Below, in pieces: positions 32,268 through 63,020 of a DNA stretch of 64,000 bases. The first letter of the stretch is position 1. Every line of letters begins with the position of its first letter. Position numbers and translations under genes: made by a program. The DNA is from Cheilinus undulatus (lineage: Eukaryota > Chordata > Actinopteri > Labriformes > Labridae). The notes under the pieces are model-generated. The model made no database searches. It was not told the origin of the DNA and saw only the letters and a program-made list of their open reading frames with translations. The stretch lies in contig NC_054886.1 of the NCBI RefSeq assembly GCF_018320785.1, forward strand, positions 7,501,207 through 7,565,206, given 5' to 3'.

Positions 32268-32305
<38 letters not shown>

Positions 32306-33530: not shown

Positions 33531-34259
33531 TTGTTATTGGAGGAAGAACTACATAAACATTAAATAAAAGGGCATTTTAATGTTAGTTTGGTTGAATATA
33601 TAAAAATATAAGTTTTATATTTCTCTGTACATTTTTGGCATGACTAAATGTTTAGACAAAACTTCTGATAGGGGCTCACATTAAAAGAGTTTGTTAGCTA
33701 CACCTGATAAATTAATTGGAGACAACAGAAAAACATTTGCTATTTCTGTTCATCACGTCTCAGTGGCCAAAGTTTATCAAAGTGACCAATGCCCAGTACC
33801 AATGTTAAATCAATGCATCCTGCATTCCATTGTAGCTTATTGTCTGCAGCACTGGGGATAAATGTCTCCATGGTTAATATGTAAACTTAGCACAAAAAGT
33901 ACAGAAATTTGTGTTTGGTAGATTATTTCTTTGTTGTAACAATGCTTCTTGGCAATAAATCTTAAACCGTTGTCAGTTGCACACTGTTGCTATCCAAATG
34001 TATTTAACAGAGAATAAAAAAGACACCTATTAAGCTCTAATGCAGTGTGTGTTGTGTGACAGTAAATCACACCTTCTATTTGTGATAACCTCTTTGGTTT
34101 TGTGGTGAAATGGTGAGTCACACAACCCTTCATCATGGAAAAACACCTATGGACAGATCAGACTTTGTGTTTTAGCTGTGGTTTTATGTTCTGCAGCACA
34201 GACGTGTCCCTCACAGACAGTCCATCAGAAACTCCCAAAGTACATCTGTCAAGAGAAAC

Positions 34260-39055: not shown

Positions 39056-39092
<37 letters not shown>

Positions 39093-42000
39093 TTAATGCA
39101 GAGTGTACAGCTCAGTGTAATGTGTAAATGAAGAGTGGGATTACAGGAATATAAAGTTGTTGTCCATGTGCTGGTCTCCAGGTGTCTCTGCTTCAATCTT
39201 TTTTTAACAGCAGGAATGGAGAGGAATTTTTCGATGCCTGACGTTTACTCCATCAAGAAGGCCAAACTTCATCCAGACTGTCAGTGCAACAATTCGCATA
39301 TGCTACAGGAAGATTCTATGTTTTTGTCTGTAGACTTCAGACCTCCAGCACCAGGATGTAAACCCATGCTAATGTAAGTCAGGAGATGTTATTTGGTCCT
39401 TTAATTAGCAGCCTAATGCTATCAGCTGTTTTAGTGGTAGTAGTAAGAAGACTAGAAGGGTAGAAGGCTGGTAATCACAACATTGTTTGTACAAGCAGCA
39501 TTTCTAGTGTCATTGAATCTCATGTTTTCTTTTGGTTTAGGTTAAAGTTCACTGATATGGAAGTGTGTAAGGATGTAGTGGACATCTTTGCTCCCGTTTC
39601 TCTTAATAATATGTAAGTTTGGGATTTTTTGACTATTATATAAACACTACATTGCAAAAATGTCATTACTTTTTTCCTCCCACATTTAGACCCCTGGATG
39701 AGACAACTCCAGCCAGTCCTGATGAGCTGGAAGTGACATTGTCAGATGTTACTACAGACTCTGAGTTGACTGGAACCAGGATCTCAGTGGCTCCTGACCC
39801 GGATGAGACAACTCCATCCAGTCCTAATGAGCCAGGAGTAACATTGTCAGATGCTACTACCGACTCTGGGTTGACTGGAACCAGGATCCCAGTGGCCCCT
39901 GACCCGGATGAGACAACTCCATCCAGTCCTAATGAGCCAGGAGTAACATTGTCAGATGTTACTACCTACCCTGGGTTGATTAAAGCCAGCATCTCAGCAG
40001 CTTCTCTTTCCACAAACATCCATCATCCACCAGTCATAGTCCATAACGAGAATTATGAGAACAAACCAAAGAACAGTGGAAGACGTGAGTCAGTGTCCCC
40101 AACATGGCTGCATCTCCAAAAACATCATCTTCATTTCTACTCCCTGAATTGGTTTAGCGCAGTGATTGCTAAATTTTAATTGCCTGAGGCACACCTAAGA
40201 TCAAGACAAAATCTCAAAGCTCACCATGTCTTGTATTGGTACAAATAAACCTCTTTATAAAATGTTAAAACAACTTCAGTTGTTGTATATTGTAGTAACA
40301 GTGTTATTGTAGTAACAAGATTGCAGTGTTAATTTTGAGAGCTATTTTTAATTTTAATCTCAGTCTTAGTCTTTAGATTAAATGCCTTTCAGTTTTAGTC
40401 ACATTTTAATAATTCCTACCATTATAGTTTCAGTCTTGTCTTAGTCCTCTAAAGTCCTCACATTTAAGTCTTTACTTTTAGTCCAAACATTTATTCTCTT
40501 GCCTGAATCAGGTACCCAATCATGGTAGTGTGTTCTAGCGCTCTGTCAAACCTGGGGTCCCTGCTTTCTACAGCTGAGAGGCAGAACAGATACAGATGCT
40601 TTGTATTTTGACAGATTTACCCACAGTGGAGAAATATCATGGACTTTGAATGTTAAACAAAAAACTAAATGATATTTTAGTCTAGTTTTTGCCATCCTGA
40701 CAAGAACTAAACTTACTTTTAGTCAGTTTTAGTTATCAAAGATCTGTTTTAGTTGCTCTTAGTCTGGTCTTTCACATGAAAAAAGCTGTCACTGAACCTT
40801 TTTAGTCATAGCTTTAGTCAATTAAATTAACACTGCACCAGCGTGGCTTGCCACACCATTGAAAAGAGACTGAGTTAAAATTGCTAATTCATATTTTTCT
40901 ACTATAACGTATTTTATGCAAGTCTTAAAGGGAGTTGTTACTTAATTGTTTTTGATTTGATTTAAAAAAGTGGGTGGGTGGGGCGTGGATGCGCCGCGCT
41001 GTGCCGGACTGCGCCGTGGACGAAAATTGCAAAATGCCCTGGACACACCCCGTTGGCGTGGCGCAGGTGCGGAGCAGGGCAGGTGCACTGCGCCTACGCC
41101 TGGTCTACGAAAATAGAGTCCTATATGTCAGCTCTGTGATTGACTGGTGACCAGTCCAGGGTGTACCCTACCTCTTGCCCAGTGACAGCTGGAATTGGTT
41201 CCAGCTCCTCGCAACCCCAAACGGGATAAGCGGATGGATTGATGGACATTGTTCCACCAATTATAGAGATACAAGCATAAAGCTAATTTGTATTTTGGTA
41301 AAAACTGCACTGATACTAACCTTGCAAAGCAGATGGATTCAACTGTTTCTGTGTTTCTCACTGGTGAATCCATCTTGCAAAGGTCCCATCTGAACTGTTC
41401 AGGCCTGGCTAGAAAGTGACAGGACCAATCAGCGACAAGGGGCAGTACTTTCGGGTGCGGCAATCTAAGCTAACAGTGACAAGAGGCCGGTGCAATTATG
41501 GCGCACCACATTAGCGTGGATGCTGCTAAAGCACCAGTTTTATCAGAACTTGACAACAATTCTTTGTTAAAAGAAGAACAAAGAATAGCAGTGAGTTCTT
41601 TTCTTTTCAAAAATAAAAAACAGTAACAGTCTAAAGGTGCCATGGTTTGCCTTATGCAGTTCTCTATGGAGTTTACACCTTGGTAGCTGCTATGACATCA
41701 CGTGTTTTGTTGCTCTGATTGGCCTGTAAAGATGTGACAGATAATCTTTTTTCAAAGGCTCTGCCCTTTCCCAAACACTGTCTATGGGAGGTGTACCAGA
41801 TAGATGTGTGAAACACATCCATCTGGCGTGTCAGGTTACACTGATGCCATTTTGCTTTATGTAAGCTTTGATCTGCAAAACCTTTTAGTTGTGTAGTACA
41901 CAGTATTCCTCTCATTTGTAGTGTCTTGCATGAAAATAAAATGTTATGCAGTTTGTATATTTGTATTTCCATGGTGCATGACTGGAGATTCAGATTTCAG

Positions 42001-44123
42001 TGTGTCCTCTAGTTCTCTGACTTTGTTACCTGATAAAGATGTTTCAGAATGTTTTATTATTCATGCTCTTAGTTAAATGGAGAAGATTCTCATAATGGTC
42101 TTTGATTGGGTCTTCCATGCCCTGCATGTGTGGCTTAACAATGGTGGGATAGAGCAGAGGAAGTAAGGAGTAGAGGTTATTCTAATGTCAAACAAATATA
42201 TATGAATTTGTAATCTTAATTGGATTATCCAATCATTTGTAACTATGTGGCTTTTTTTCTTCAGATGCCCTCACCCCTGATAACTGCTGCTTCCAGTTCT
42301 ACCCCAAACGACTGGACAAAAAGCTGGTCCGTGAATACTTTGTGACTGATGAGCGCTGTCCCAGGAGAGGAGTCATGTAGGTGTTCAACGTACTATTTCA
42401 GATTTATTCTGCACTTAAAATGCACTGTTTGAGAAGAGTGTCTTGTCAAGTTTACTTTAAGTTTTCTTGTTTATGAATTAAATATTTGTAGGATTAAAAA
42501 AAATCTTCTTTTTACTTCGTCTTATTCTATTTCTATTGAGCGTGTTTAAATTTTCCCATTTCTCTCTTTCCTTGTACTATTCTCTTTTTTGCTTTGTATA
42601 AGGTTTACTTTATTATTACAGACCTCTATTGTGTTAATTGTGTGTATTTTCATGCCTTCTTTGTTTTTATATTCCACATATCAAACCACTTAGAACTGCT
42701 TTTTTGTGTTAAGCTGCTTTGAAAATGTTTTCGACTGTTAGTATTCTCTAATTATAATTTCAGTATCACTGCAGCTCTTTTAGGTCCTAACTGTAAATAA
42801 TACAAACATATCATGACTGTCAAAAAAAATACATATTTAACTGTGATTAATCTTGATGAATTTGGATTAACCTCCTTTTTGGCCCATTTTGAAATTCCAC
42901 TTTCTTGCATTAAAACTGTTTTTGTTTGGGATGAATGTCTGGAATTTCGTAGAAGTTTAAGTAAATTGCTTAAAATGTTGGGACTTTGCTTTGCAAAAAA
43001 AAAAAAAAAAAAAAAATCAGGAATTTTCATGATATTTTCCTCTGCCACTCTGACGCAGAATTTATGGCACAGTATCCCATTTTCTTTTGGAGTTCTCCAG
43101 GTAGCAAAACCGGGTTTCTCAAAACCGTGATATCCCAGTTTCTGAAGGTGTATACATGCACAAAGAGATACCAGGATACTCAGAGAACCAGAGAGAAAAC
43201 GGGATACTCAGCCCATGTAAACACACTCAATGACGACAGCTGCAGACCTGAAAACTACCCTTGAAAAAGACGAGTCAGATCGATTTCTCTTCCCCTATTG
43301 TCAGAAGACCCGCCCCTTCTTGTTTTGATTGGCAGGTGAGGGAGAAGTGGCAGTGACGAGCACAGCACTGTTCCAAAAGTTTGACTGTTTGAGCGCTTTA
43401 TAAACACTGAGGCCGTTTTTAAAACTTGGAAATTCTAGTTGGATACTTTATTGCAAATGCACCCTGAACTCGGATTCTGACTCAGAAACTCGAAGCAACT
43501 TCAGTACCCCAAGTTACAAACTCAAAGTAATTGGGTGTGATAAATAAAGGGGCATTAATCTGGATTAGCTCTACAAAGTCTGAGAAAAAATGGTTTTGGT
43601 CGGAAACTTGAATAGACTTGGTTTTTAGGATGAAAGGTTTACCCTCAAATATCGATTAGAGGGAATCATGACCTTCTTATTTTACAACACAAGCTTTTTG
43701 CCGTTGTCTTGATTTTCCACTAAATAACAGAAAAGTTTGGATATCAGTAACTGACCCTGAAGGAGTATTGATAAATGATTTGGTGGTCCCTGATCACACT
43801 TTACATCATACTGCAGTCTTTAATAACTCTCATCCCTACTCCCAAATACACGGATGGATGAAATAACAGAATGATGAGTAAAGTCAAAGTCAAAGTCAAA
43901 GTGTCTTTATTGGTCTCCCGTAACGTCGGCATCAGCTGCCTTAAAAGAATGATATCAAAGATAATTGTGTCATGGCTTAAATCTTGTTAAGAATCAGCTC
44001 TTATATTTGAATTTTCCCTTTTTACCTTCCAGTTTGGTTTTGAAGAAGGGCCACAGAGTCTGTGTGGATCTCAGTGCCCCCTGGGTCATAGGCGTCATGA
44101 TGCACATGGACAAAAACTACTAA
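34260..44123 (+). CDS. Gene C: two-domain CXC + CC chemokine-like protein, 353 aa (model)
   Basis: Model exons: 34260-34341, 37732-37878, 39211-39373, 39541-39612, 39690-40084, 42265-42376 and 44033-44123; all junctions GT-AG and in frame, 1062 nt in total. Residues 1-27: signal peptide (VALLNVVWVFFFL). 28-76: acidic exon with a lone cysteine (FVEFCLHP) and four N-glycosylation sequons. 77-155: CXC-type domain, CQC, then cysteines after 23 and 13 residues. 155-286: Ser/Thr/Pro-rich linker with a 35-residue repeat. 287-353: CC-type domain (DNCCFQFY, third and fourth cysteines 22 and 15 residues on), nearly identical to gene A. The CC exon has no signal exon of its own upstream, and its phase fits the linker exon exactly. 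A secreted tandem ligand is the inferred product. If the two halves are separate transcripts, the CC half would be an exon-1-less copy. Confidence 0.65.
35200..35345 (+). mobile_element. Fragment of a DNA transposon end (TATTGGCACCCCT)
   Basis: GAAAGTATTGGCACCCCTGG is a terminal word I associate with fish Tc1/hAT-type elements. Only about 150 bases are recognisable. Confidence 0.4.
37430..37690 (+). mobile_element. Composite of repeat fragments shared with 41310-41840 and 48900-49110
   Basis: CAGATAGATGTGTGAAAC and TCCATCTGGC recur at 41790-41840. ACCTTAACTGAGTCAAGTGA with CCTGCAGGTCTT recurs at 49015-49050, in the Tc1-type remnant. Confidence 0.5.
37879..39210 (+). other. Gene C intron 2
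   Basis: A 1.3-kb AT-rich intron between the acidic exon and the CXC exon. It ends close after a TA microsatellite at 39059-39087. I recognise nothing else in it. Confidence 0.55.
39059..39087. repeat. (TA)n microsatellite in gene C intron 2
   Basis: About 29 bases of uninterrupted TA, 124 bases before the CXC exon. Confidence 0.95.
39697..40003 (+). repeat. In-frame 105-bp coding tandem repeat in gene C
   Basis: Units start at 39697, 39802 and 39907, exactly 105 bases (35 residues) apart; the third is diverged near its end. Each begins DETTP and includes VTLSD and GTR-x-x-VAPDP. Units two and three begin almost identically, which suggests recent copying and likely length variation between individuals. 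The content in Thr, Ser and Pro predicts an O-glycosylated spacer between the CXC and CC domains. Confidence 0.9.
40320..40830 (-). repeat. Interspersed repeat R2 (ACTAAAAC-rich), copy 1
   Basis: The + strand carries TTTTAGTC and TCTTAGTC words. On the other strand this is the ACTAAAACTAGACTAAAAT vocabulary of 60205-60660. The two ends include AATTTTGAGAGCTATTTTTAA here and AAAATAGCTGCCAAAATTAA there. Confidence 0.6.
41125..41255 (+). mobile_element. 3' tail of a fish LINE or SINE
   Basis: GACTGGTGACCAGTCCAGGG, TGTACCCTACCTCTTGCCCA and GGGATAAGCGGATGG are the well-known tail words of CR1/L2/Rex-type elements and the SINEs that share their tails. No coding part is attached. Confidence 0.6.
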
Positions 44124-46779: not shown

Positions 46780-47420
46780 TAAAAACCCTCAATAGTCTCA
46801 GGTCTTAGGCCCAGGCACAGAGTGACAAAATTATAAGGAATCTGCACTTTAAATGCTTTTTCCATTATACTCCTGATTTGATTCCAGTCATTCGCCTCAG
46901 TCCATTTTAAATGAGCTTTGGCCCAGAGAAGATGGTGGCATTTCTGGATCCTGTCTATGGCTTCTTCTTGCATTTGTGGGTGGCACAGCCTTCAGTGTAG
47001 ACAGACAGTGATTTCTGGTAGTGTTCCTGAGCCCATGCAGTGATTTCCAGGGCAGAATCGTGTCTGTTTTCAATGCAGTGCTGCCTGAGAATCCAGTATC
47101 AACCTTTGACCTTGGCCCTTGTGCACAGAGATTCTTCCAGATTCTCTGAATCTTTTGATGATATCATGGAGTGTAAATGGCGTCATATTCAAAGACTTTG
47201 CAATAGTACATTAAGCAACCTTTTTTCTGAAATTGCTCAGTTTAGACAGTTTTTTGCAGATTGGTGAACCTCTACCCATCTTCATTTCTGAAACACTCCA
47301 CCCTTAAAAAAGTTCCTTTTATACCCAGTCATGTGACTGACCTGAGATTTGAGATGTGTTACTGCCATCAAATTCAAAATGAGCTAATATTTTATCTATA
47401 TCCAAGGGGGCAAAGGGTGT
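46780..47420 (-). mobile_element. Tc1-like transposon remnant
   Basis: The minus strand encodes [13 protein letters not shown], the same transposase block as in other copies. The + strand near 47100-47260 is the complement of the helix-turn-helix part. No intact frame. Confidence 0.55.
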
Positions 47421-47788
47421 ACCAGATGCAACCTTCAGACCAAGACTGAGATGACCGTGACCTGGATGAGTGAAAACACAGAAGTATGGAGATTTTATTA
47501 TCAAAGATCTGTTTTTAGCTCATCCCGTCTTCATCACAGAAAAAAGCGTTGCTGACTAAAATCTTTGCTCATATTTTAGTCATGAACCTTTTTTTTCATG
47601 ACGAAGACAGGATGAACAGATTACTTCCAAGGAGTTGGCCTGGTATTGCAACACCCTTTCAGCACGTTCTTCCTTCCTTTGCAGCTTAAAGATCAGATTA
47701 TGAACTTCCTGTGAGGTATTAAGGTTAAAGTTGTCCGGCCATATTTTACTAAAGCTACCTGGAGGCGTCTTAGAAGTACAGATTCAAG

Positions 47789-50700
47789 ATGGGCCTCTTC
47801 TTCATCAGTCAGCTACTTTTGACGACTCTTCTTCTTCAAACGACCGTAGAAAGTAAGTCCAGAGGCTGAGTTCTGACATTTATATTTTTCTAATATGGGA
47901 GTTTGCAGGGATAACTACAAATCTGTCTTTAGTTTGGGTGAAAAAGGACTGGAGTTTTAGAGGTCTTAAAGTTTAAATACTTGTTTTCTCCAGATGCAGA
48001 GTCAACACTTGAGCCAGACGATTCTTTGTATTACGGCGAGTTCTGCCTTCATACTTCTAACCCCCATTGGACCACATCAGCTACCCAGCAACCCACAGAG
48101 TCCAACAGCGGGAAACCCAAATCCTCAAAAGAGAAGCCAAACAAGGAATCAACCCAACCTTTGGGTGATGCTCCAGATGCTTCGTACAATACGTCCACTC
48201 AGTCAACCACACAGCCCTCCTCTGAATCCACCAAACAGCCGACCCAAGAACCACTAGAGGAAGTTGTTATGGAGGAAATCAGAAACATAGCGATGGCTCC
48301 TCTGGGACTGGGTGAGACTTTTCCATCTATTTTGGGCTGTATTTTAGCTTGCTTTAATGATTATTGCTTTTTCATTCCTGGTTTTTATCCTTGCATGATC
48401 TTGTCACAATGCTGTATGACTGCAACTTCCTGTGAAATTTTATTCATAAAACTTGTGTTATTTTAAACCCAAGAGCAGTTTAGGTGAAAAAGACAAGCGA
48501 GAAGTTAATGGATAAACAGACTGCATACAAAATGTAGTTTCTAAACGAAGGTTTTTATTATTAAGAGGGAAAAAGTCCAAGCTTATCGGGTCCTATGTGG
48601 AACTGCCAGACCTGCTTAATAAAGAAATCCCTTAAATAGAACCTGACTGACAAAGTGAAGTCGACTAAAAGGTCTCAAAAAGCAACACATCATGGCACCA
48701 TATGTAGAAATTACAGTCTCTGACATCTCACAGTCTGGAATGGGTTACACAGTCAGTTAGAAGGCTTTAGGACTATAGTGAACCACAGTGATAGCCATTA
48801 TCCACAAATGGGGAAAACTTAAGAAGTGGTGATCCTTCCCAGGAGTGGCCAGCCTACTAAAATGACTTCAAGAACGCATCAGTGACTCATCCAGGAGGTC
48901 ACAAAAAACCCAGAACAACATCTAAAGACCTGCAGGCCTTGCTTGAGAGCTATTATCCACAACTGAGGAAAACATTTTGCCCAGTCTCTTTCCTATTGTT
49001 GAGACATTAACACTGACCTTAACTGAGTCAAGTGAGGCCTGCAGGTCTTTTGATGTTCTGGGTTCTTTTGGAACCTCCTGGATTAGTCTTTGGTGTGCTC
49101 TTGGGGTCATTTTGTTTGGTCAGACACTCCTTGGGAGGTTTGCCGTTGTTTCAAGTTTACCCCATTTGTGGATAATGGCTCTCACTTTTTTTTTTTTTTT
49201 TGCTGGAGTCCCAAAGGCTTATAAGTGCCTTTATAACCCTTTCCAGACTGATGGATGCAAAATAGCTGCAGTTTGTCTTTTTTCAGGTAATCTTTGACTG
49301 ATATAGATTTTTTTTGATGATCTTTAATATTTATTGTGATAAATATGCAAAAAAATACAAAATGAGGAAGGAGGCAAATAGTTTCGACAGTGCTGTACAA
49401 CATGTTTAAAAGACTCTAATGTTGATTTATAAAATGAAGATGCAGGGCTCCTTTTAAGGACGTTGCTGTTTGCCTGTTTTCTCCTTTAAGTCTTTCCTTG
49501 TCGCTGTGAGAAGATTGAGAGGAGTGTTGATGCTGGCATTGACCAGTTTAAGGGCATGCTGATCCTGACTGCCACAGAAATGTGCAGCAAACGTCAATTC
49601 ATGTAAGTAAGAGTGACATTTAAAGTGAAATTGTTGAATATTTTCTCACACCATTGGTCAAATGTTTTTGCAACATGTACAGTGCGTTCACTGGCTAACC
49701 ATCCAGTGAGAAAATACTCATGCACCTCACAATGAAAGGATATACCAGTCCTATTCCCGCCCTCTTTTACTGTGAAGCCATGCCGTTGTAACTTGTGAAA
49801 ATCCGAATCCTGTATGCACCTCGAAGTGTTAATGGTGCCTTCACAAATGTGCAAGTGGCCCATGCCATGGGCACCAATACACCCCCACACCATCACAGAT
49901 GCTGGCTTTTGAATTTTGCATTGATAACAATCTGGGTGGTCCTTTTCCTTTCTTCTAATTTTAAAGTAATTTTTTGGATAAATTAAATGTGCAGCTGATT
50001 TCCTTTCATGATGAAGGGAACTTTTCCTCTCTTTTTAATGTTTTGCAGTGGGATTAAAACAGATGGACAGGAAGTCTGTGTGTCAAAATCAATCGCAAAG
50101 GCTTTCTTAAGAAACAACCTGTAAGTACTTCTGAACTTCTGCTCTTTTACCTAGGACCCTGTGGTGATTTTTTTTTATTGGTGATAATGTGCACAAAGTA
50201 TGCAAACACAAAACAGCAATATTAAACATTGAACAAGAACGCAACCTGACAAAAAACAAACAAACACACAAATAAAAAAGACCATACAGCTGTATGTCTT
50301 TAGCGTTAAATAATATGTGATGTGGTAGGGAGTCCTAGAAACAATAAAAAACAATCAAAAATATCGTCATCTTGTTAATTTCTCAATGTTTTACATTAGA
50401 CGGCACAAATGGATGAATAATAACAGTAGATTAAAAAATTAGAAAGATGCAAGAAAAACACAAAAACAAAAAGACACACCTGTAATGACCAAGGATGTTA
50501 TTGTATTATAATAATAATCACACTTATAGTGCTAATAGTAGAACTAGTAATAATAATAATGACATGACTACTACCACCACCACTACTACTACTACTGCTA
50601 AAAATAATAATAATGATAAAATAATAATATTGTTAACAATGGATGACAAAAAAGAGAAAACCTAGCTAGTGGTGATAATCATCCTCATCCTCCTCCTCAT

Positions 50701-50883
50701 CATCATCATTATCATAATCATAATCTGCATCATCATGACAATCAGAGCAACAAAAAGGTAATTATAAAGTCAGTTGAGTTAATTTCCCAATGTTGTTGAT
50801 GGCACTAATAATCACAGTTGTTATGGTAACAACAGTTAATAATACAAAAATAATAATAATCATTGTTATAATCATCTCACCTC

Positions 50884-50929
<46 letters not shown>

Positions 50930-53834
50930 TTATAGTAGTAGTAGTAGTAGTAGAAGAAGTAGTACTATTAGTAGTAGTATAACTACAGCTACAACTTTGA
51001 TCATTACAGGTGTTTTTTTTTTTGTTTAGTTTTGTTTACTTCTGCATCTTTCTCTTTATTCAGTATTTACCTATATGTGCCATCCAAAATATAAGGAAAT
51101 TATTGCTTTATTATCTTCATACTCGTTGCTGTGTTGATGATGATAATAATGATGACGATGATGGTGATGATTATTATTTAACATATATATTATGCTGACA
51201 TTATGAAGGCAATATGATAATGATTATGCTGATTCTTATTATTGTTATAGCTGTTACAGTTGTCACTGAGGTGATATGATAACGATGATTATTATTAGTA
51301 TTATAGGCTTATTGTGTTTAGCATTGCTGCTGTCATGTAGCCCCTCCATGTGTTCCACCAGAAATGTCAGTAAATGCTTTACAACAACAGAGGTCCCCGG
51401 GTAAAACTTATCCTGTGCAAACAGGATGTCAGCTTGATAACCTGTAGTTGAAATGGACATTAGCAGTCCATCTACATTGGAAATGCCATTGCAGTCATTT
51501 AACCTGTACACACTTTTATACCTCATTAGTGCTGACTCTTGACATTGAAAACTCAGCTCTAAATAGTATATCTGCTTATGTGGAAATGTTTGAGTCAGCA
51601 AGTTCTAATCTGATAAAAGCATTTCCTGACTGATGAGCGGACGTGTCGTTAATCTTTTCCTGTAAGTTCACTTGTTGACACGAGCATTTTTCTCCTCCAA
51701 CCCACAGTCGCAGACCTGAAAAACCACCAATAGACAGTATCTCTGGGTCTTCAGCCCCGCTGGATATAAACACACAGGAACCCATAACCGTCACACCATC
51801 TCTGGCTGAAATGACTCAATCCACTGATCTAAATCCACAAGATTTAGAAAACGAATATTATTATAAAACTGCTGATCCGGTCTTAGATGTACATCCCCCA
51901 CATGGTAAGGACCCAGCGCCTGTAAGGCCTTTGTGAGTAATCGTACCCAAGCCTGTAGCAAGTCAGTGGAAGCTTTCAGAGGTGGAATTGTACACAGCTA
52001 TTATACTCAAAAGTAAAGTTACACTGGTTAAAGTTTACTTTAGTTAAAACCCACTCAAAACTAAAAAGTAGTTAGTAGTTAGTGTAAAGTTTACTCTGAG
52101 TCTGGATGATAATACTGTTTCCTGTTGTGTGGCTCCACAGTGAGTGTTGAGTGTTTATCCTGCCTGAACCAGACTGATCTGAACAAAGGTGACCTATGGT
52201 TTTGGGATTCCCTGGATGTGATGATGGAACAAGATTCCTGCCCTGCTTCTATCCAGTAACAGTTTATACGTCTTGACTTGACTATTGCACTCCTAAAAGG
52301 ACAGTTTAATAACTTGATCAGTATCTTTTGTTTTCAATGTGTTTAAAACAACCCAGGGAGTTTTATTAGAGCTTCCAGTGGACAGGAAGTGGAAGGTTGA
52401 ACGATGATCTCTCACCTGTTAAAGGAAATAACCTTCAGTCCTCTGCTTCTGAACACAGTGTCACCCTGAAAAATGGCAGTTCTTCCTGTTTGACCTCAGT
52501 GGAGCAGCTCTTTGAGATAGCGCTGACAGAACTGCATGAAGAAGGCAGTCCGACTGATGTTGGTTTGTATAAATCTCTTCTCCACTGAATGTTATTCCTT
52601 CACTCAGATACGTCATCAGATGCCTTCTTACCAGCAGTCCAAAAACCAAACAGTATTCATAAAGAGTGAAAGAACGAAGCAAGATTTCTAAATTCTGCTG
52701 GGAAATGACTAAACAGTTATTACAGAATTTAATGGGTCCCTGAAAACCCCAGAGAACAGGTCCTGCCTGGCTGTTATTGATGATCAGTGCACTGGGTGTG
52801 GAGCTGGAATCCTGGTTAACAGGATGTTGGTATTATTGTTTTATGCTACTTTTTAACCCCTTTTCATCACGCCTTCTGCCTGTTTTTGCTGCTGCATGTT
52901 GCCCCTTTTGCCCCATTTTCTACCTATTGCCAATTGTTGCTTCTGTTTTGCCTCTTTCTTTCATTGCTTTGTTGCCACTTTTTACACATTTTTTTTTTTT
53001 TAACCACACTTTTGCCAGCTTTGTGCCCAATTCAACACTTTTTCTTTTTGGCCACTTTTAACCATTTTTGCAGCTTTTTCCCCATTATTGCCACTCGCTC
53101 TCATTTTTGCCCTTTCATTGCACTTTTGCCTCTTTAGCCTGCTTTTGACCCTAACTTTAATGAATTTTTACAAAATTATTGGCACTTTCTTGATTCTTTT
53201 GTCCACTTTTACCACCGTTTTAGCCACTTTTAATCAATTTTTCACCTTTTGCCCATTTTAGCTTCTGCTTTGCCACTTCTTCTGATCACATTTGTTGTTT
53301 TTTTTTTGCTACTTTTTCCCATTTTGTCCCTTTTGTTGCCACTTCTAACCCTTTTTGTTGCTTTTAAACAATTTTTTCCTTCTATTTTGCAACTTCTTTT
53401 GGCACTGTTAGTGCACTTTCACAAACTTTTTGTTCAATTTGACACCTTTTGCCTCTTTAAACACTTTTTTTTGCCACTTTTAACCATTATTGCCACTCTT
53501 TCACATTTTTGCCTTTATTTTGCCACTTCTTTTTATAACTGTCATTGCAGTTCTACTTTTGACCCTGATTTTAGCCAGTTTTTACCCTCTTTGCTGGCTT
53601 TTGCCCATTTTTGCTGTTTTTCATGCCCATTATTACAACTTTTCTCTCATTTTGCATCTGTTTTGGCACTTCTCTTTGGTACTTTCATTGCATTTTGCCC
53701 CCTTTTAGTCCCCCTTGCTTATTTTTGCCACTTTTTTGCCACTTTAACTCATATTTGCTGATTTTTTTTCCCTAATTTTTTCACTATTTTTCTGCTTTAA
53801 CTCATTTCTGCTACTTTCATCTATTCTTGACACT

Positions 53835-53872
<38 letters not shown>

Positions 53873-56800
53873 TCTTGCTGGATTTACCCTTTTGCCACTT
53901 TTTTGCCACTCAAAGCCTATTCATTCATGGTAACTAGTTTTTTTGTACCTTTTTTGCCACTTTGTTTTGAGACATTCATTGCACTTTTGCCAGTTTTTGC
54001 TTATTTTTATTCTTATTTTGGCTTTAACCCATTTTGCAGCATTCCTCCCATTTTTGATACTTTTTGCCCCTTTAAAACATTTTTTTCTGGGGGTTTTCTT
54101 GCCTCTTTTTCCCATTTTTTTTTTTATCTTGGCACTTCTTGTGGCACTTGTGGCCCTTTTTTTTTTTTTCTTTTAGCTGTTTTCGTTTCTGTTTTGCCAA
54201 ATCTTTTTTGGCAGTTTATTGAACTTTTGCTGCTTTTTCCCCACTTGGATCACTTTTTTTTTTTCTTTTTTTACTTTTAACCTTTATGCTGTTTTTCACC
54301 TATTTTTGCTGCTTTTGCATTATGCTTTTTTTTTTTTTTTGCCTCTTTTCAGAATTATTCAGTCATTTCCATCAAAGTGTCTCAGTTTTTTTCTACTTGG
54401 TTTTCTGGCATCCTGATGATTGTGCATTATAACTTAGCTATGAAGTCTGACGTTACTTTCCTAATGGTTTAACATCACTTATAAAAGGGTCATTGAGGTG
54501 TACATTTTGAAACTGTGACCCCAGAGAGCTCTCCCCTTTATCCTCCTTTATGGGTGGCCTTGAAGCATCGGCATCTAAACTGTTAAAACTTCCCTCCTTT
54601 TAAAGCCACTGATGGATGTCGCTGCAAAGAGACGGAGAAGAAACTTCCAGATGAAACCTCACCCGTCACAAGAGCAAGGATCTGGCGTTCCAGCGACACC
54701 TGTAATTCAACTCAGATTATGTAGGTGTGAAGATTTGTGTTTAAGTGTGTTTGTGTGTGTTACTCATTATTTGGGAGAGTGTGAGAGGCTGGCCACATCT
54801 CTGCTGGATAAAGTCAGAATTCTGAGATTAAAGTGACTCCTTCTGAGTAGTCATAGGTGGCCTCTCTCTCTAGTCTCCTTCTTGCACGCTCACTCAGTTT
54901 GTGAGGACGGCCCGATCTAGGCAGATTTGCACATGTGCCATATTCCTTTCATTTCTTGATGATGGATTTAACTAAACTCCAGGGATGTTCAGTAGCTCTG
55001 AAATGCTTTTGTATCCATACCCTGACTTATTATTTTTAATCACTTTCTCTCTGAGTTGCTTTGAGTGTTCTTTTGTCTTCATGGTGTAATGGTAGCCAGG
55101 AATACTGATCAACCAGTGACTGGACCTTCCAGATACATCTGTTTGGCTCCTTCACTGCCTTGGTTGGTTAGTTGAGCTGATGGTCAGTCCTAGCTTGGAT
55201 AATGTTAAAGGGATATTTCAGTATTTTTTTAAGTAGGGTTGTCTGAGGTACTTGACAATAATTGTGGCTTTATGCTGCAGTGATTTCAGAGAGTGTTGTC
55301 CCAAATTTTGCAAGCTGAAGATAGGCCAGATAACAATGCTGGATCACCTGTACACTATTATGAAATTTTTTGAGGTGTTTTACTTTCCACCCAGAAAGCC
55401 TGTGTGTTTGCACAGCTTTAGCTACTGGCTTTGTGTTCTTCTGCAGAACACAGAGGTTTTCTGGGCGAATAATAAAACACTTCATAATATTTTCAATATA
55501 GAATACAATTCAGTCAACATTGGGTTTTTTTTGGCCCATTTCACCTCAAACTAGTTGAATTATGCAGTGAAACTGTACCCATATGTGACCAAAGCTGGTA
55601 AAAACTCCTGCAAGTTGTCTGAGATCATTTTTGAGTTTTTTACACATTATGAAATCATAGATTCCAAGCTTTCAAATGGTGTATCACACACCCTAATCTG
55701 AGCATATTTTACAAAGATATGCTCATTTGAATGTTAACTTCTAGTTTCTGTTTGTTCTGAGAAAACCAGGTTCAAAGTTTCAGGACTGCTCCTACCTTCA
55801 AGCAGGCCAGGTAATGGGCGTGAACAATAGAGCCACATTTACATAAAGTCCACCCAAACCAAGCTTCTGAATTGGACTGGTGACGCTCATCAAAATATTC
55901 CCATAGGAAATCCGCCTTCATCAAACTTTCACTGTCGAGTGATCCTGAAGTCATCCCAAGTCTGTTGATAATTCTTGATGCTTCTTCATCGTCTCTTCTA
56001 CTTTTCTTCGCTGCAGGGTGCATCTTGAGGCTTGCTGTTAAAGGTGATAACTAGAAACAGCTGTAGTTACGTGCCGAGGGGGCTGGCGTTTGAGCCATGT
56101 GGTGTTTGTTATTGTCGATCTCAATGGGTGAAACTGGGAACAATACCAGGCTGAGTGGCCAATTATCACCCAGCAGTTTCGCTTTCCCCTCCCCTCAATC
56201 TCCCTGCAGAACTACGTAAAGAGGGCATTTTTAAACACAAAATAAACGCTTTTAAATATCACATTTGTGTTACTTTTTTCATCGAATGAGTAGTTTAAAT
56301 GTCGGGCTTGCATAAAAAGAGAAAAAATGAAAAATGATCATTTTGAAGAAAACGACTTTGTATCTACTTTTTCTCAACCACCGGAATGGCGACTTGCAGG
56401 AACTTTATCTGGCTTCGGTCACATATGCTATGCTGTATAGCCTAGCTTCTCCAAATGCATGCAGACATAAAAGTAGCAATCCCTGAGATTTTGGGAATGA
56501 GTGATTTAGAGTAAAAAATGTATTAAAATGGCAGTCAAGTTTCTGTGATGCAAACTAAACTTACGCTTTTGCTTTTCCAGAGAGACACTGATGGACGGCA
56601 GAGAAGTGTGTGTGAATGAAACCAGCTATTTAGAGTACTTGGACTTCAGTCATTCGTAAGTAAAGCACCTCTAACACAGATCATACTTATGTAGACTTGA
56701 TTTAAATTATCACACATTATGTGATTTTACTTTGACCTGACATTTTTTAAAACAAGTCATCTGGTTTAGGAGTCATCCGTCATGTTTGGTGCAATTCTCT

Positions 56801-59800
56801 TTCATGCTCACTCAGTCACTGTGATCAGTGCAGAAAGTATTCAGACCTCCCTCACTTTTTTCAATTTTGTTACCTTGCAGCCAGAAGCAATAAAAAACAT
56901 TTTTATTCTCACGAATCTATGTTTAGTACCCCATCACATCAAAGTGGAAACAGAGTTTTAGAAATTTTTGCAAAGATATGGAAAAAAAAGAAAAATCACA
57001 TTGGCATAGATATCCTGACCATGTGCAAAAACACTAAATTTAGCTCAGGTTCCTCCCATTTCTCTAGATCCATCGCTGCAGCTTCCACTGATCTGGGCTT
57101 TATGGCAGTGTGAACTCATGGAAGTCTCTCCTCAATGTTAAACACATAAAAGCCTGCCTGATGTTTGCAAAAAGCTCCAAATGAAAGTCAGGCAGGCTGT
57201 AATGTGTTTTGCACTGAGGAGAGCCCACATTACCTGTCAACAATCCTGCTCTTTTGACCTCATGGCTTGGGTTTTGCTCATATATGCACTGTCAGCTGTA
57301 AGGCCTTCTATAGAGAGGTGTGTGCTCTAATCAGTTTAATTTACCACAGGTGGACTCCAGTCAAGGTGTAGAAACAGATCCAGAGAAATGGGAGGAACCT
57401 GAGCTAACTTGAAGTGTTTTTCAAAGGGCCTGAATACTTAAAATAATTTGATATTTTAGGTTTTTTTTCCCCATATATCAATCATTCTCTTCTGCTTCTC
57501 CGAGTTTGAGCCACTTTGCCAAAGTAGGTCAACCCAGATGTCTCTCTCCCCCCAGCAATGTTTTCTAGTTCCTCCTGGGGGATTCTGAGTCACTCCCAGG
57601 CCAGATCAGATATAAAAATCCCTCCAGCGAGTTCTGGATCTGTCCCGAGGTCTCCTCTCAATTGGAAGACCTCCACAGGAAGGCACCCAGGAAGCATCCT
57701 GATTAGATACCCAAACCTCTTCAGCTGGGTCCTTTTGATGGAAAGAGCCCAGAAACCCTCCTAAGAAATCTCATTTCAACCACGTGAACCTGCAATCTCA
57801 TTCTTTCTGTCATTACCCAAAGTCCATGACCACAGGTGAGGATTGGGACATAGATCGACCAGTAAATCAAAAGTTTTGCCTTTCAGCTCAGCTCCCTCTT
57901 TGTCACAACGTTACGGTACAACGCCTGCAAAACTGCTGACGCTGAAATCTGCCTGTCAGTCTCTTGGAGGTGCTTATTCTCATACCAACCGCTTTGCACT
58001 CAGCCACAAACCGTCCCTGCTGGAGGTTCCCAGCCAAGGAAGCCGACAGAACCACATCATCTGCAAATAGCAGAGATGATACTGATGCCAACACGCAATG
58101 GGAATGTGTCCCTCCGTGTCCCACTGAGGATCAGCACCTCATTGTGGTGGAGGGATTTGTGTGTCCTAGTGAACCCAGGAGCTACGTTGCTGGGGGAATT
58201 AGCCCCTGGTAGCATTTCCCAAGGCAAATTGGTCCCGGGGAAGTGCCCAGATGAAGAGTGATTCAAGACAGCCCTCATGATTTGGAGCCTACAGTCTGGG
58301 GTTACCTCCCTCAGAATAGTGAGACCCCCTGGAGCCCAATCCAGGCTTCATTCCATGGGTCCCGGACGGGCTTAGCCTGACAAGACATGAAACCACTACC
58401 AGGCAGGCAAAGGCGAGGCCTAGGACTACTGATGCCCAGCAGCATAGACTGGTTTTGGGTTATTTTTCATAGACTTGTAAACGTTTCTAAATTTCTGTTT
58501 TCACTTTGCCATGATCGGGTACTGAGTGTAGATTAAATTAGAAAAACTAGTTTTAACAGACTGTAGCATCAGGATATAACATAACAAAATCTAAAAAAGT
58601 GAAGGGGGTCTGAATACTTTCCTAAGGACCTGTATATGCATATGGGGACTGTGTAGTTAAAGGTGGTAAACATGCTTGAATAGTCCTTGTAAATACTAGG
58701 AAATATAACCCTGGCATTGCCACTGCCGAGTAAACTATCTGGGATTTGAGCCTTTCAATTATGAAATGAAGAAAAGACATTTCTTTGGTAGCTTGTCAGA
58801 TGATGGTAATTTCATTGCTGGTGTCTTGGCTCTAAAGGAACATATTTAGCATTTCCTTTAAGCTGATTATTTTTTTTTTTTTTGATAAATGTCTCATTCA
58901 ACAGCAAAATCAGCACCCCCATTGAACATGGAACAGCCGGGGTGAGGATTGACATTCTTCCTGGGGAGAAACAGCAACCTACACAACTTGAGGATCGATC
59001 TTTATTGATCAGGGGAACAGAGGAAGAACGTTGTGAGTTTCAGCTTGTGCAGAGCAACATAACATCGCATTTATCCTCAAAACACACCAATTTACCTTTC
59101 TCAAACAGGGACAGGGACATGGACAGTAACACCAAATCCCAGGGTATTTGAAAATATCCACAGTATTGCTTGAATTACCGTCGTAAAGACAGTTCTGTGT
59201 CATGAGCGAGTATTTATGCCTTAAGAATGTGTCTGTCTCTAGCAGCAGCACCACTACCTGAGTGCTAAATGCTTTCAAAGTGATGACAGAACTCCTGTTA
59301 ATGATGGAGCACCAATCTGTCAAACACTTAAGCAAGAATGAAAAGGACTCGCTCATATAAACTTGAATGTTACTGCGTTTGCCCCTGTTCTAATCCTCTC
59401 TAAACTTAAAAACATTTTAATTTCTCTTTCTAGTAGTAGATCAGTGATATATATTAAATAACATTTACAGTTTATTTCTGATTAAAAACACAGGAAACAT
59501 TTGCAATGATTTTCTAATCTCATAAAGCAGCAGCACATCTTAAAAAAGAGAGTGCGTAGACATTGAATATCCCACCATCTAAAGTCCATAACATCACCAG
59601 AAGCTTCAGAGAATCTGGAGAAATCTTTTTGCTCAAGGGGCAAAGCTGAAGGTCAATATTTGAGGAAAATTTTCAGTTTCTGTCAACACAGTTGGCTGTG
59701 AAACACCACTAACTTCTCTGGGCCAGAGCTCATTTAAAATGGACTGAGGCTACATAGAAAACTGTTCTGTGGCCAGAAAATCCAAATTTGAAATTCTTTA

Positions 59801-61946
59801 TGAAAACCACGGACACTGTGTCCTGTAGACCAAAGAGGAGAGGGATCACCCAGCTTGTTACTAGCACAGTTCTAAAGCCTGCATTTTTGATGGTATGGGG
59901 TTGCATTAGTGCCCATGGCAAGGGCAGTTGAGCAGCTTGAATCCTACATCAGCCAAGAATGGAAAAACATTCCTCACCCAAACCTCCAGCAGCTGGTCTC
60001 CTCACTTCTCAGATATAATAGAAGAGGGGAAGCTACACAGTAAACATGACCCTGTCCCTTCTTTTTTGAGATGTGTCACTGCCATCGATTTTACAATGAG
60101 CTTCATAAAATATGGGTTTATGAGATTTGACAATTGTATTTTCATTGACATTTTGCCTGCCACAGTGCCTGGAATCAGTTATGCTGTGTAAGAGATGTTC
60201 TTCAAATCAGTGTTAATTTTGTCGACTAAAACTATGACAAAAACTATACGTCCACAACCTTTATTCCATGACAAAAACTAGACTAAAACTAACAAAAATA
60301 GATCTGTGATGACTAAAACTAATGACTAAAACTAGACTAAAATATAATTTTGTTTTCGTCGGACATTTGATATTTCTGCACTGTGGGTAAATCTGTCAGA
60401 AATTTGGGACCCTAGGTTTAATATAAAACACACTACCGTGATTTGATACCAAATTTAGGCATGAAAATAAATGCTTGGACTAAAAGTTCAGCCTTAAATG
60501 TGAGGACTTTTTATGGACTTAAACTAGACTAAAATGTTTTGGGTTTTCATCGACTAAAACTAGACTAAAACTAAAAAGGGTAGAAATGACTAAAGCTAAA
60601 ATGCATTTCATTTAAACACTGAACTAAAATTAAAAATAGCTGCCAAAATTAACACTGCTTCAACTCTTGTGATCAGATTAAAAAGATGTATTTAGTCTTT
60701 ACCTACTCTAAAGGTTGTTGTCTGGCTTCACAGACGATATCGTTTGCCTTGGCTGTGTTTCCCCTGACTGGAACGACTTTGACCCGCAGGATGTTGAAAG
60801 TTTGGTGATGACAACAACTCCTGGCTGTCCGGCTCTGGTTGTGTAAGTTTCTGACCGTTCAAACTTTTTTTTTTACACTGAACGTAAACTTCTGTCTTTC
60901 TGACTGTCAGACTAATATGGAAGCCCATTTCTGTCACTTTAAAAAGAAAAATGTGGAAGTTGGGCAATTTGGGAAAAAAAAGAAGGATCGTAAGTCATAA
61001 TTATGACAGAAACCTTTTGATAGACTTTTTCCCTCATATTTTTATCTCATAATTTCGATTTTTTTTAACATAATTATGATTTTTTTTCTAATAATTTTCA
61101 TCATGTAATTTAATCTTTTAACGTCATAATTTTGACTTTTTATCTCATTATTAGGACTTTTATGTCATAAAAAATTTTTATCTCATAATTGTGACTTTTT
61201 ATCTGATAATTTTGACTTATTTCAAAATCATGACATAATTTTAACTTTTTATCTGATAACTATAACTTATCTCATAATTATATGACTTTAATCTCATGAT
61301 TATGACTCATTATCTAATAATTTTGACTTTTCATCTCATAATTTGACTTATTATCAAGTTATTATTACTTTCTATTTCATAATTATAACTTTTTATCTAA
61401 TAATTTTTCATTTTAATCTCTTTATTTTGACTTTTTCTGAACTCATTTTTATGACTTTAAAAAATTCTAATTTTTAGAATCATAATTTTGACTTTTCATC
61501 TCATAATTATCACTTTTAATGTCAAAATAATGTCTTTATCTAATAATTTAGACTTTTTATGCCATAATTTTGACTTTTTATGTCATATTTTTGTTTTTGA
61601 TATCATAATTGACTTTTTATCCCGTATTTTTTACTTTTTATCTCATGATTCCAAATTTTTATCTCATAATTTTGACTTTTTATCTCACAATTTCCATTTT
61701 TTTCTCATAATTTTGACTTTTTAATTTATAGTTATGACTTTTTTTCCAAGAATTGCCTTACTTTCATGCTTTTTCTATTTACTTGGCAGAAATGGGCTTC
61801 CATACACCCCAGATTCAAAAGAAGCTTTCCTGAAAATTTATATCTATCCTGTGATTCACAGAGTCAAAAGGAAAACAAAACACGGCTTCTGCGTTGTCTC
61901 ATCTGATTCTATGTTTGAGGTTCTGCTGGAGAAACTGGACATCTAA
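47789..61946 (+). CDS. Gene D: four-domain chemokine-like protein, 521 aa (model)
   Basis: Model exons: 47789-47852, 47994-48311, 49491-49602, 50049-50120, 51708-51904, 52141-52255, 52459-52562, 54606-54720, 56581-56655, 58905-59032, 60734-60842 and 61790-61946. All junctions keep frame; total 1566 nt. Residues 1-21: signal peptide (MGLFFISQLLLTTLLLQ). 22-127: Ser/Thr/Pro-rich exon opening DDSLYYGEFCLH. 128-189: domain 1 (CRC). 189-254: linker with EYYY in an acidic setting, a possible tyrosine-sulfation site. 255-327: domain 2 (CLSC). 328-391: domain 3 (CRC). 391-433: linker. 434-521: domain 4 (CLGC). The weakest junctions are exon 7 to 8 (donor GTTTGT) and exon 6 to 7; exon 7 also reads to a stop at 52586, so a two-domain isoform, or two separate genes, is possible. 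No signal exon is visible before domain 3. A secreted multi-domain ligand or decoy is inference. Confidence 0.62.
48312..49490 (+). other. Gene D intron 2
   Basis: The intron between the mucin-like exon and domain 1 is mostly occupied by a Tc1-type remnant at about 48540-49290. I see no exon in it. Confidence 0.55.
48540..49290 (-). mobile_element. Tc1-type transposon remnant
   Basis: The minus strand (ORF 48922-49110) encodes EPRTSKDLQASLDSVKVSV then STIGKRLGK, the second helix-turn-helix of Tc1-type transposases. It is truncated and carries a poly-T run at 49187-49201. Confidence 0.7.
49491..50120 (+). other. Gene D chemokine domain 1 (C-x-C), exons 3-4
   Basis: Exon 3 (112 nt) encodes PCRCEKIERSVDAG and ends after TEMCSKRQF; exon 4 (72 nt) encodes GIKTDGQEVCVSKSIAKAFL. 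The cysteine plan is C-x-C, 27 residues, C, 15 residues, C. This matches the chemokine fold: three strands, then a helix after the fourth cysteine. Exon lengths equal those of gene A exon 2 (112) and gene C exon 4 (72). Confidence 0.75.
49615..49960 (-). mobile_element. Tc1-like transposase catalytic-domain fragment in gene D intron 3
   Basis: The minus-strand ORF 49594-49896 begins MMVWGCIGAHGMGHLHICEG, a hallmark of the Tc1-type DDE domain (V-W-G followed by G-x-L-x-x-x-E-G). The frame then degenerates. Confidence 0.75.
50121..51707 (+). other. Gene D intron 4, microsatellite-rich
   Basis: This 1.6-kb intron contains AAT, TAG, CAT and GAT simple repeats at 50510-51300. Short minus-strand ORFs have no signature. 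Confidence 0.55.
50510..51300. repeat. Cluster of trinucleotide microsatellites
   Basis: Runs of AAT (about 50885-50928), TAG (50934-50953), CAT/CCT (50670-50745), ACT/ACC (50570-50596) and GAT (51134-51172) lie within 800 bases. Confidence 0.9.
52141..52562 (+). other. Gene D chemokine domain 2 (C-x2-C), exons 6-7
   Basis: Exon 6 encodes VECLSCLNQTDLNKGD and ends after DSCPASI, phase 2. Exon 7 encodes VTLKNGSSSCLTSVEQLFEI, with a C-terminal helix. The plan is C-x2-C, 25 residues, C, 14 residues, C. The exon 6 donor CA|GTAACA would read as CAG TAA if not spliced, stopping translation at once. Exon 7 either donates at 52563 or reads on to a stop at 52586. NQT and NGS are glycosylation sequons. 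Confidence 0.65.
52589..54605 (+). other. Gap between gene D exons 7 and 8
   Basis: No signal peptide exon, promoter or poly-A site that I can defend lies here, which is the main reason for treating domains 1-4 as one gene. Most of it is the T-rich tract at 52840-54410. Confidence 0.5.
52840..54410 (+). repeat. T-rich degenerate tandem tract, unit like TTTTGCCACTTTT
   Basis: About 1.5 kb of degenerate copies of TTTTGCCACTTTT, CATTTTTGC and TTTAACC words, with a poly-T run of nearly 30 bases at 53838-53866. Long phenylalanine- and leucine-rich ORFs run through it on the + strand only because of its composition. Same vocabulary as 26440-26780 and 29940-30040. Confidence 0.85.
54606..56655 (+). 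other. Gene D chemokine domain 3 (C-x-C), exons 8-9
   Basis: Exon 8 (115 nt) encodes GCRCKETEKKL and ends after SDTCNSTQI; exon 9 (75 nt) encodes LMDGREVCVNETSYLEYLD. The plan is C-x-C, 25 residues, C, 15 residues, C. The DG-x-EVCV block is shared with domain 1. Exon 8 begins in phase 1, so it fits exon 7 and could not start a protein on its own. Confidence 0.72.
55581..56426. mobile_element. DNA element with terminal inverted repeats in gene D intron 8
   Basis: The left end ATATGTGACCAAAGCTGGTA and the reverse complement of the right end (ATATGTGACCGAAGCCAGA) match over about 19 bases, followed by a shared CTCCTGCAAGTTG/TTCCTGCAAGTCG block. The unit is about 850 bp. A minus-strand ORF (55772-56023) of 83 codons lies inside; I do not recognise it. 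Confidence 0.65.
56829..58633. mobile_element. Tc1-type element with terminal inverted repeats, split by a LINE fragment
   Basis: The left end has AAAGTATTCAGACCTCCCTC; the right end has GTGAAGGGGGTCTGAATAC, its inverted match. The interior also has an inverted pair: CCATTTCTCTAGATCC near 57057 and GATCCAGAGAAATGG near 57377. A Rex3/RTE-like fragment interrupts it at 57480-58440. It lies in gene D intron 9. Confidence 0.7.
57480..58440 (-). mobile_element. Rex3/RTE-like LINE fragment (reverse-transcriptase part)
   Basis: The minus strand (ORF 57903-58124) encodes SLLFADDVVLSASLAG, the F-A-D-D active-site motif of reverse transcriptases, then ECKAVGMRISTSK, typical of fish RTE-clade (Rex3-like) elements. 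Frames are interrupted on both sides, so it is a fossil. Confidence 0.75.
59480..60190 (+). mobile_element. Tc1-like transposon remnant in gene D intron 10
   Basis: It shows GGGCCAGAGCTCATTTAAAA and TGGACTGAGGC, the nucleotide form of the AHLKWTEA block, then GGAGAGGGATCACCCAGC as in the copy near 20450. No intact frame. Confidence 0.55.
60205..60660 (+). repeat. Interspersed repeat R2 (ACTAAAAC-rich), copy 2
   Basis: Repeated ACTAAAACTAGACTAAAAT words. Reverse-oriented partner at 40320-40830. It ends 74 bases before the exon of domain 4. Confidence 0.6.
60734..61946 (+). other. Gene D chemokine domain 4 (C-x2-C with long loop), exons 11-12
   Basis: Exon 11 encodes DIVCLGCVSPDWNDFD and ends after TPGCPALV; exon 12 encodes NGLPYTPDSKEAFL, then a basic stretch HRVKRKTKHGFC, then SSDSMFEVLLEKLDI and the stop. 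The plan is C-x2-C, 23 residues, C, 38 residues, C, so the third-to-fourth gap is about 24 residues longer than usual. The terminal helix resembles that of domain 2 (SVEQLFEIALTEL). Confidence 0.68.
61015..61750 (+). repeat. Tandem repeat, unit like CATAATTTTGACTTTTTATCT
   Basis: About 740 bases of degenerate copies of a roughly 20-base unit (CATAATTTTGACTTTTTATC) fill most of the last gene D intron, between the two halves of domain 4. Confidence 0.85.
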
Positions 61947-62225: not shown

Positions 62226-63020
62226 TGGAATTGGTTCTTTGCAGATGACATCATGCAGCAGCAGAGAACTCCTCTTGGGGGTCAGGTAGTGATTTCTGCA
62301 TGGATAAAATGACCCCCAAAAGACCATGTTTTGAGCTGTTTTTGACTATGCCAAGCATTCAAAGTGTAACAATATAAAAATTCTTAATTCTGAAGCTACT
62401 ATTATGTCATGAAAGTTGTGAACTATTAAGACAAAAAAAAATAAAGTTTTTAAAAATGTAACTCTGATCTTACCTGTGTTTCTCAGCTGATGCCTGAACC
62501 TCCAGCCTTGCTTGTTGTGACAGGAAATCCGTCTTTTTTTAAAGTTGCAAATCCTTTTTTTTTTGACTCCCAAACTGCTCTTCATATGTTACCATTTTTT
62601 TTTTAAAATGTGGATTAAAAAACAGGAGCTAGCTGACTGCAGCTAACATAAAAGAGTTACTTTGTAGCACAGGCTCGCTGACTCTGTTGCTTACCTCACA
62701 AGGTTTATTTAGTTGATAGTAGATTGCTGTTTCAATTAAAAGCATGTTTGTGACAAAACAAGACTCCTCTAGATGCCAGGAGGTCTGCAGGCCTAAGTAA
62801 TTTGTGTCATCCACACCAGGTAAATCAGTTAAACTGTGGTAAAAATATATATTTTTTGTAACATGTAGGGCTCATATTTACTGGTTGTAGAAATTTTATG
62901 ATGGTAATAACAGCCTAGAGGTCCGTTTAGAGCTTTAAAGTACTAACTTTCCTCTGTTTCCATTCACTCCTAATGGCTGTCGCCCACTTCCTGACCCCAA
63001 ACGGACATTCAGGATCACAT
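62225..63020 (+). repeat. Interspersed repeat family R1, copy 3
   Basis: It shares GGTTCTTTGCAGATGACATC, GTAGTGATTTCTGCAT and CCTAATGGCTGTCGCCCA with copy 1 at 14545-15565, in the same orientation. Confidence 0.6.

Follow-up and report, generated by a model that had tools for sequence, protein, structure and literature searches.

By definition a chemokine is one small domain in which a free N-terminus serves as the receptor trigger, and the locus analyzed here, within a 64,000-nucleotide stretch of Cheilinus undulatus DNA (the window), raises the question of whether one gene could carry four such domains in tandem. An earlier note had drawn a 12-exon in-frame path of 521 aa through this region. 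We rebuilt that path by estimating exon borders by eye, after which a script picked AG/GT sites within 6 bases. Sixteen border combinations were open through to the final stop, and just one of these reproduced the noted path (521 aa, junction 52562–54606). The whole gene candidate occupies 47789–61946 on the plus strand, with 12 exons in one open spliced path, listed here with the probable start of exon 12.

47789–47852, plus strand: exon 1, start codon and signal peptide (MGLFFISQLLLTTLLLQTTVE); the sole signal-exon candidate in 47000–48000
47994–48311, plus strand: exon 2, acidic mucin-like stalk (26% Ser/Thr, 10% Pro, net charge −9; codon use p 0.0005)
49491–49602, plus strand: exon 3, first half of domain 1 (CRC)
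50049–50120, plus strand: exon 4, second half of domain 1
51708–51904, plus strand: exon 5, acidic linker from domain 1 to domain 2
52141–52255, plus strand: exon 6, first half of domain 2 (CLSC)
52459–52562, plus strand: exon 7, second half of domain 2; weak donor TTG/GTTTGT
54606–54720, plus strand: exon 8, first half of domain 3 (CRC)
56581–56655, plus strand: exon 9, second half of domain 3
58905–59032, plus strand: exon 10, linker from domain 3 to domain 4
60734–60842, plus strand: exon 11, first half of domain 4 (CLGC)
61862–61946, plus strand: exon 12, second half of domain 4 and stop codon; start probably corrected from 61790
62440–62445, plus strand: first AATAAA past the stop codon

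The hydrophobic exon 1 and the Ser/Thr/Pro-rich exon 2 agree with the signal peptide and mucin-like exon described in the earlier note. The last exon, in comparison, probably begins at 61862 rather than at 61790, as in the 521-aa model, where it spans 61790–61946. A second in-frame acceptor lies at 61862 (tatcctgtgattcacag/AGTC), and its use shortens the product to 497 aa. With the 61790 acceptor, block 4 has 38 residues between its third and fourth cysteines, which is not chemokine spacing, and domains 2 and 4 (D2 and D4) give a local match of 21.2 bits only, compared with an SW score of 74 (z 10.2) with 61862. The latter acceptor leaves 14 residues between these cysteines, the same as in D2, and is preferred because D4 then has chemokine spacing and the D2/D4 alignment improves. 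Four blocks with chemokine-type cysteine spacing had been claimed; this stood for blocks 1–3 as first modeled, whereas in block 4 the spacing was lost with 61790 and regained with 61862.

The resulting domain order is CXC (D1), CxxC (D2), CXC (D3) and CxxC (D4). With exon 12 from 61862, the gaps from Cys2 to Cys3 are 25, 25, 25 and 23 residues in D1 to D4, and those from Cys3 to Cys4 are 15, 14, 15 and 14, so that all four domains show the chemokine spacing of ~24 and ~15 residues between the later cysteines (D4 does not with 61790). The protein has 17 cysteines in total, and the one outside the domains, C39, lies in the exon 2 stalk. The single residue between Cys1 and Cys2 that characterizes the CXC subfamily is present in D1 and D3 (CRC) and absent from D2 (CLSC) and D4 (CLGC), and the cysteine patterns of the CC, CX3C and XC subfamilies fit none of the four domains. 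The CxxC spacing of D2 and D4 belongs to none of the four named subfamilies. A single open path with four domains also departs from the norm of one small domain (~8–12 kDa) per protein, a norm that is descriptive and not a homology criterion; this departure depends on the putative join of exons 7 and 8.

The intron phases are 1,1,2,2,1,2,1,2,2,1,2. Each CXC domain with its linker has the phases (1-2)(2-2)(2-1) and each second domain (1-2)(2-1), a pattern that repeats up to the terminal exon; CXC genes have a phase-2 intron within the domain, as here. The domains follow an A B A B order in which A resembles A and B resembles B. Because the intron phases repeat, the simplest history suggested by the sequence is that a two-domain cassette with phase 1 at both ends was duplicated internally.

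Next, the domains were compared with known chemokines. The whole 497-aa protein matched the Pfam IL8 family (PF00048) with 37.6 bits in two stretches. D3 alone scored 27.9 bits against a cut-off of 21.3 and D1 alone 16.1 bits, below that cut-off, and neither D2 nor D4 alone gave a Pfam IL8 match. In the PDB, 34 of the 36 sequences matched by D3 at E ≤10 were chemokines or chemokine constructs (best E 0.0013), the remaining two being IGFBP5 and pyridoxal kinase; D1 alone had no PDB match. D1 nevertheless aligned with D3 at z 11.4, with 0 of 500 shuffles as good, and D1 and D3 aligned with an IL-8 stretch at z 5.0 (1 of 500 shuffles) and z 13.6, respectively. Rfam and NCBIfam returned 0 matches each.

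For D2 and D4, the chemokine case rests on their mutual match and their joint profile, since the single-domain tests were weak. With exon 12 from 61862 their alignment runs from before Cys1 to within the C-terminal helix region, has two gaps of one residue each and 33% identity, and no shuffle in 500 did as well. When the two-row D2/D4 profile was run against the PDB, all 11 matches at E ≤10 were chemokines, the best being platelet factor 4 (PF4; E 9.8e-4, positions 3–64 of 69). An hhalign comparison of D2/D4 with eight chemokine domains gave E 4e-4 at a probability of only 35%, with Cys1 excluded. On its own, D2 had seven PDB matches, four of them PF4 forms (best PF4, E 0.089), and D4 had five weak ones, none of which was a chemokine. 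Pairwise, D2 was no better than shuffles against the IL-8 stretch (z 0.9, 96 of 500 shuffles) and scored z −0.8 against CCL13, and D4 reached z 2.5 against IL-8 and 3.3 against CCL13. Neither D1 with D2 (z −0.6) nor D3 with D4 (z −0.5) aligned better than shuffles. A derivation of D2 and D4 from CC domains was considered on account of the D4–CCL13 score and set aside, as the profile favors PF4, a CXC chemokine. These comparisons support the prediction that one open reading path carries four domains of chemokine type. Of the claim that one gene encodes four chemokine domains, the domains are thus backed by the Pfam, PDB, D1–D3 and D2–D4 matches, and a single transcript is favored as the probable reading.

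Related sequences occur upstream of the gene, and are listed first.

20987–23014, plus strand: CC chemokine gene, exons 20987–21056, 21127–21238 and 22924–23014
37732–40084, plus strand: gene B candidate, exons 37732–37878, 39214–39373, 39541–39612 and 39690–40084
42265–44123, plus strand: second CC chemokine copy, partial, exons 42265–42376 and 44033–44123

The CC gene, translated with two residues missing at its last join, matched Pfam IL8 with 49.2 bits and, in the PDB, small-inducible cytokine A13 best (E 6.9e-11). Its exons 2 and 3 recur together with the intervening intron at 42265–44123, where DNA blocks are 89–96% identical, and both copies fit the CC cysteine pattern. The copied stretch begins past the signal exon, and none was found by similarity for the second copy; a weak signal-like candidate lies nearby at 42077–42143. 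Over 198 bases the copies differ by 12 bases in amino-acid-changing codons versus 2 silent ones, and the NG86 estimates (dN 0.077, dS 0.066) show neither constraint nor clear positive selection.

Gene B combines an EFCLH-bearing stalk exon and a CXC-pattern domain with a linker rich in repeats, in the same phases as the four-domain gene. The EFCLH stalk motif is common to both genes, and across the first 50 stalk residues 3 of 2000 shuffles were as good. The linker exon encodes 35-aa repeats (a 105-base tandem repeat) and is the only one with codon use below 0.05 (p 0.0005, with 0.16, 0.11 and 0.30 for the other exons). The CXC-pattern domain had no Pfam match, no PDB match and no hhalign support, and a candidate signal exon at 34260–34341 was without codon support (p 0.44). 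With its phase-1 end the linker could be joined by splicing to the CC copy at 42265; AATAAA/ATTAAA motifs follow it from 40244. Gene B is a possible upstream relative.

Further from the gene, neighboring open reading frames match DUF4603, TBC, an ADA2-type zinc finger and GrpE in Pfam, and we take the DUF4603 frame to be KIAA0232, the zinc finger frame TADA2B and the GrpE frame GRPEL1. An exon at 10928–11350, presumably of TBC1D14, has a weak RabGAP-TBC match just below the cut-off (E 2.5e-5). Another neighbor, without an informative Pfam match, was named CCDC96 by eye, so that the locus would sit between TBC1D14 and CCDC96, and we assume that the surrounding gene order resembles that of human 4p16.1, where we know of no chemokine. 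By eye, open frames at 26843–29905 resemble a non-LTR retrotransposon.

A close copy of the gene was sought in the 1.17 Gb assembly of 46 contigs, in which the window spans C22:7501207–7565206, with D3–D4 and shortened D1–D2 queries, the queries omitting stalk residues 50–126, and none was found: this locus alone gave matches below E 0.5. The best off-locus candidates for a second copy, at E 0.59 (D3–D4) and 0.64 (shortened D1–D2), were rejected, and two of the nine off-locus D3–D4 matches, looked at in one frame each, had stops and no chemokine pattern. A genome search for the IL8 family yielded 48 exon matches at E ≤10 from 54 scored candidates. The exons of the four-domain gene are not among these 48, and the exon-level search therefore misses divergent members. 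Pattern searches of viral and prokaryotic contig collections gave 5 and 21 matches, respectively, none of them a relative; given the nature of these collections, the result says little on fishes.

Could the open path be an accident? On a reading to which we give very little credence, the locus holds chemokine-like exons in a cluster undergoing decay. In its favor, neither gene B nor the second CC copy appears complete, and a zebrafish survey, in the part available (PMC2416438), reports a number of exons resembling those of chemokines beside or inside intact genes, the majority being perhaps pseudogenes. The counts of exons point the other way. First-type exons, defined by an acceptor, the chemokine cysteine pattern and a donor in the right phases, were found four times without overlap in 14.2 kb. 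In 500 resamples from a first-order Markov model, the count was zero in 428, one in 67, two in 4, three in 1 and never four. A cruder count of overlapping acceptor-donor pairs averaged 0.145, with a maximum of 4 in 200 resamples. On both strands of 224 kb, at a donor score of ≥5, there were 11 candidates: the four of the four-domain gene (gene A), two CC chemokine exons, one from gene B, and four unexplained. Codon log-odds, trained on neighboring open frames versus non-coding window DNA, gave per-exon p values from 0.0005 to 0.31, with seven of the 12 exons below 0.05 and five above. The combined Fisher p was 3.5e-8 for all 12 exons, 1.4e-5 for exons 1–7 and 2.2e-4 for exons 8–12, which supports a coding role for both halves of the predicted gene. 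Twelve open exons with splice sites and such codon use also speak against decay.

We consider it likely that a single gene covers all 12 exons, and the question turns on the junction of exons 7 and 8, which the earlier note had singled out as its least certain point. At the exon 7 donor, 5 of 9 positions agree with the consensus, and the donors of exons 2, 6 and 10 are no better. Unspliced, exon 7 runs into a stop ending at 52588, 26 bases beyond the donor. The alternative exon 7/8 borders 52558/54724 keep the path open but lose the CRC domain. Within the intron, by eye, 52850–54350 consists mostly of T-rich, degenerate repeats resembling TTTTGCCAC.

The weak donor and the stop close behind it would also suit two transcription units, namely a complete two-domain gene (exons 1–7, stop at 52588) followed by exons 8–12 as a signal-less paralogue or decaying copy, an arrangement that we regard as unlikely. 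A TATAAAAG motif at 54480 and a signal-like open reading frame at 52536–52590 (MKKAVRLMLVCINLFSTE) count in favor of this arrangement. However, the donor of the signal-like frame is weak, the stretch lies across coding exon 7 in a different reading frame, and because the same screen yields two candidates in 14.4 kb (23300–37740), one in 2.35 kb is unremarkable. An ATG at 54550 reaches a stop ahead of exon 8, as judged by eye. A signal exon before 54606 had been named as part of the grounds for refutation; no convincing one was found, 52536–52590 being the one weak candidate, and among the matches listed there is no repeat of the signal or stalk exon ahead of exon 8. Moreover, no AATAAA/ATTAAA occurs in 52563–54605, exons 8–12 have splice sites, frames that stay open and the codon use of coding sequence, and D3 scores better than the other CXC domain, all of which count against two units.

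The two endings may also coexist as isoforms, with read-through of exon 7 giving a two-domain form and splicing a four-domain form, with separate roles for the two. This possibility, which overlaps our main explanation, seems to us somewhat doubtful. The sequence leaves both endings open, exon 7 has its weak donor, and variant poly(A) motifs, among them TATAAA (52568) and CATAAA (52658), follow this exon, yet the missing AATAAA/ATTAAA in the intron weighs against the shorter form as well.

Returning to the single gene, its product would comprise, in order, a signal peptide, mucin-like stalk, CXC domain, linker, CxxC domain, CXC domain, linker and CxxC domain. Outside the signal, the highest mean hydropathy over 19 aa is 1.1, that is, by simple hydropathy there is no second strongly hydrophobic stretch and no membrane span, and with its hydrophobic exon 1 the protein is of the predicted secreted type. 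Net charges are −9 for the exon 2 stalk, +3 for D1, −7 for the first linker, −10 for D2, −4 for D3, −2 for the second linker and −5 for D4; hence the stalk, both linkers and three of the four domains are acidic. The linkers measure 65 aa after D1 and 42 aa after D3, with none between D2 and D3. Two acidic tyrosine clusters, DDSLYYGEF (48017–48043, stalk) and ENEYYYKTAD (51847–51876, first linker), look sulfation-like by eye.

In known chemokines, receptor activation requires a free N-terminus beside the first cysteines. D1 begins at residue 128, and D2 to D4 sit behind linkers or preceding domains. Because the N-terminus of every domain would be tethered behind the stalk, a linker or another domain, agonism of the full-length form appears unlikely, and the tethering and the acidic charge together argue against an ordinary agonist. 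The charge likewise argues against strong heparan sulfate binding by the predicted protein. CC chemokines keep a basic 40s-loop motif, and D4 carries KRKTK at that place. From the blocked N-termini we infer, tentatively and as one possibility, that the full-length form is not a conventional agonist and acts instead as a soluble multivalent binder or antagonist. It may be a receptor antagonist, or a decoy pairing via its chemokine domains with ordinary chemokines. The earlier note had put forward a ligand, decoy or scavenger.

The main functional rival is a processed precursor, in which proteases would cut the linkers and free separate chemokines with new N-termini. This would remove the problem of the blocked N-terminus, and separate linkers do follow D1 and D3. 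Nevertheless, just one of five dibasic spots falls in a linker (RR 190–191), where Pro comes next, and D2 and D3 have no linker exon between them, which leaves this route rather improbable.

A broader reading, to which we give little credence, would make the locus a workshop of polyvalent chemokines built from phase-1 cassettes. Here gene A would have four domains, and gene B would have its CXC domain and repeat linker spliced to the CC copy at 42265–44123 as a natural CXC-CC chimaera. Sulfated tyrosine clusters would mimic receptor N-termini, giving secreted chemokine traps.

Our preferred explanation is narrower: one fish gene, grown through internal duplication of the phase-1-bounded two-domain cassette, would encode a secreted four-domain protein of ~497 aa acting as a multivalent binder. 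Taken as a whole this is a plausible account, held with a little less than even confidence. If true, a secreted protein in which all four domains are tethered would break the single-domain chemokine plan. It would stand as nature's equivalent of the multivalent or antagonist chemokines made by engineering, and would test whether chemokine domains can evolve to bind other chemokines.

The earlier note knew of no four-domain vertebrate chemokine, and no multi-domain one was found in the open-licence PubMed Central literature, where the chemokine papers in scope, each available in part, were PMC3568907, PMC2416438 and PMC4690017. Among the families that these describe, CXCL_F1–F5 and the zebrafish CX chemokines are lineage-specific in ray-finned fish (PMC4690017, PMC2416438); in the available parts of the two papers they include no multi-domain member, the comparison being by description only. 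CXCL16 and CX3CL1 resemble the present gene in that a chemokine domain is joined to a Ser/Thr-rich stalk (PMC2416438, in part). In contrast to both, the stalk here precedes the first domain, no transmembrane stretch is seen, and there are four domains. CCL18 (PARC) encodes a single chemokine domain, against four here. Its gene nonetheless arose by fusion of two chemokine genes, going by a title cited in the available part of PMC2416438. The closest resemblances are to CXC chemokines, chiefly IL-8 (CXCL8), to which D3 is similar, and platelet factor 4 (CXCL4), to which the D2/D4 profile is similar, and the four-cysteine pattern is common to all. Both of these have one domain, whereas the gene described here has four, of which three are acidic and two (D2 and D4) carry two residues between Cys1 and Cys2. 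By its predicted domains the gene is a member of the chemokine superfamily, and its putative multi-domain architecture is what is new.
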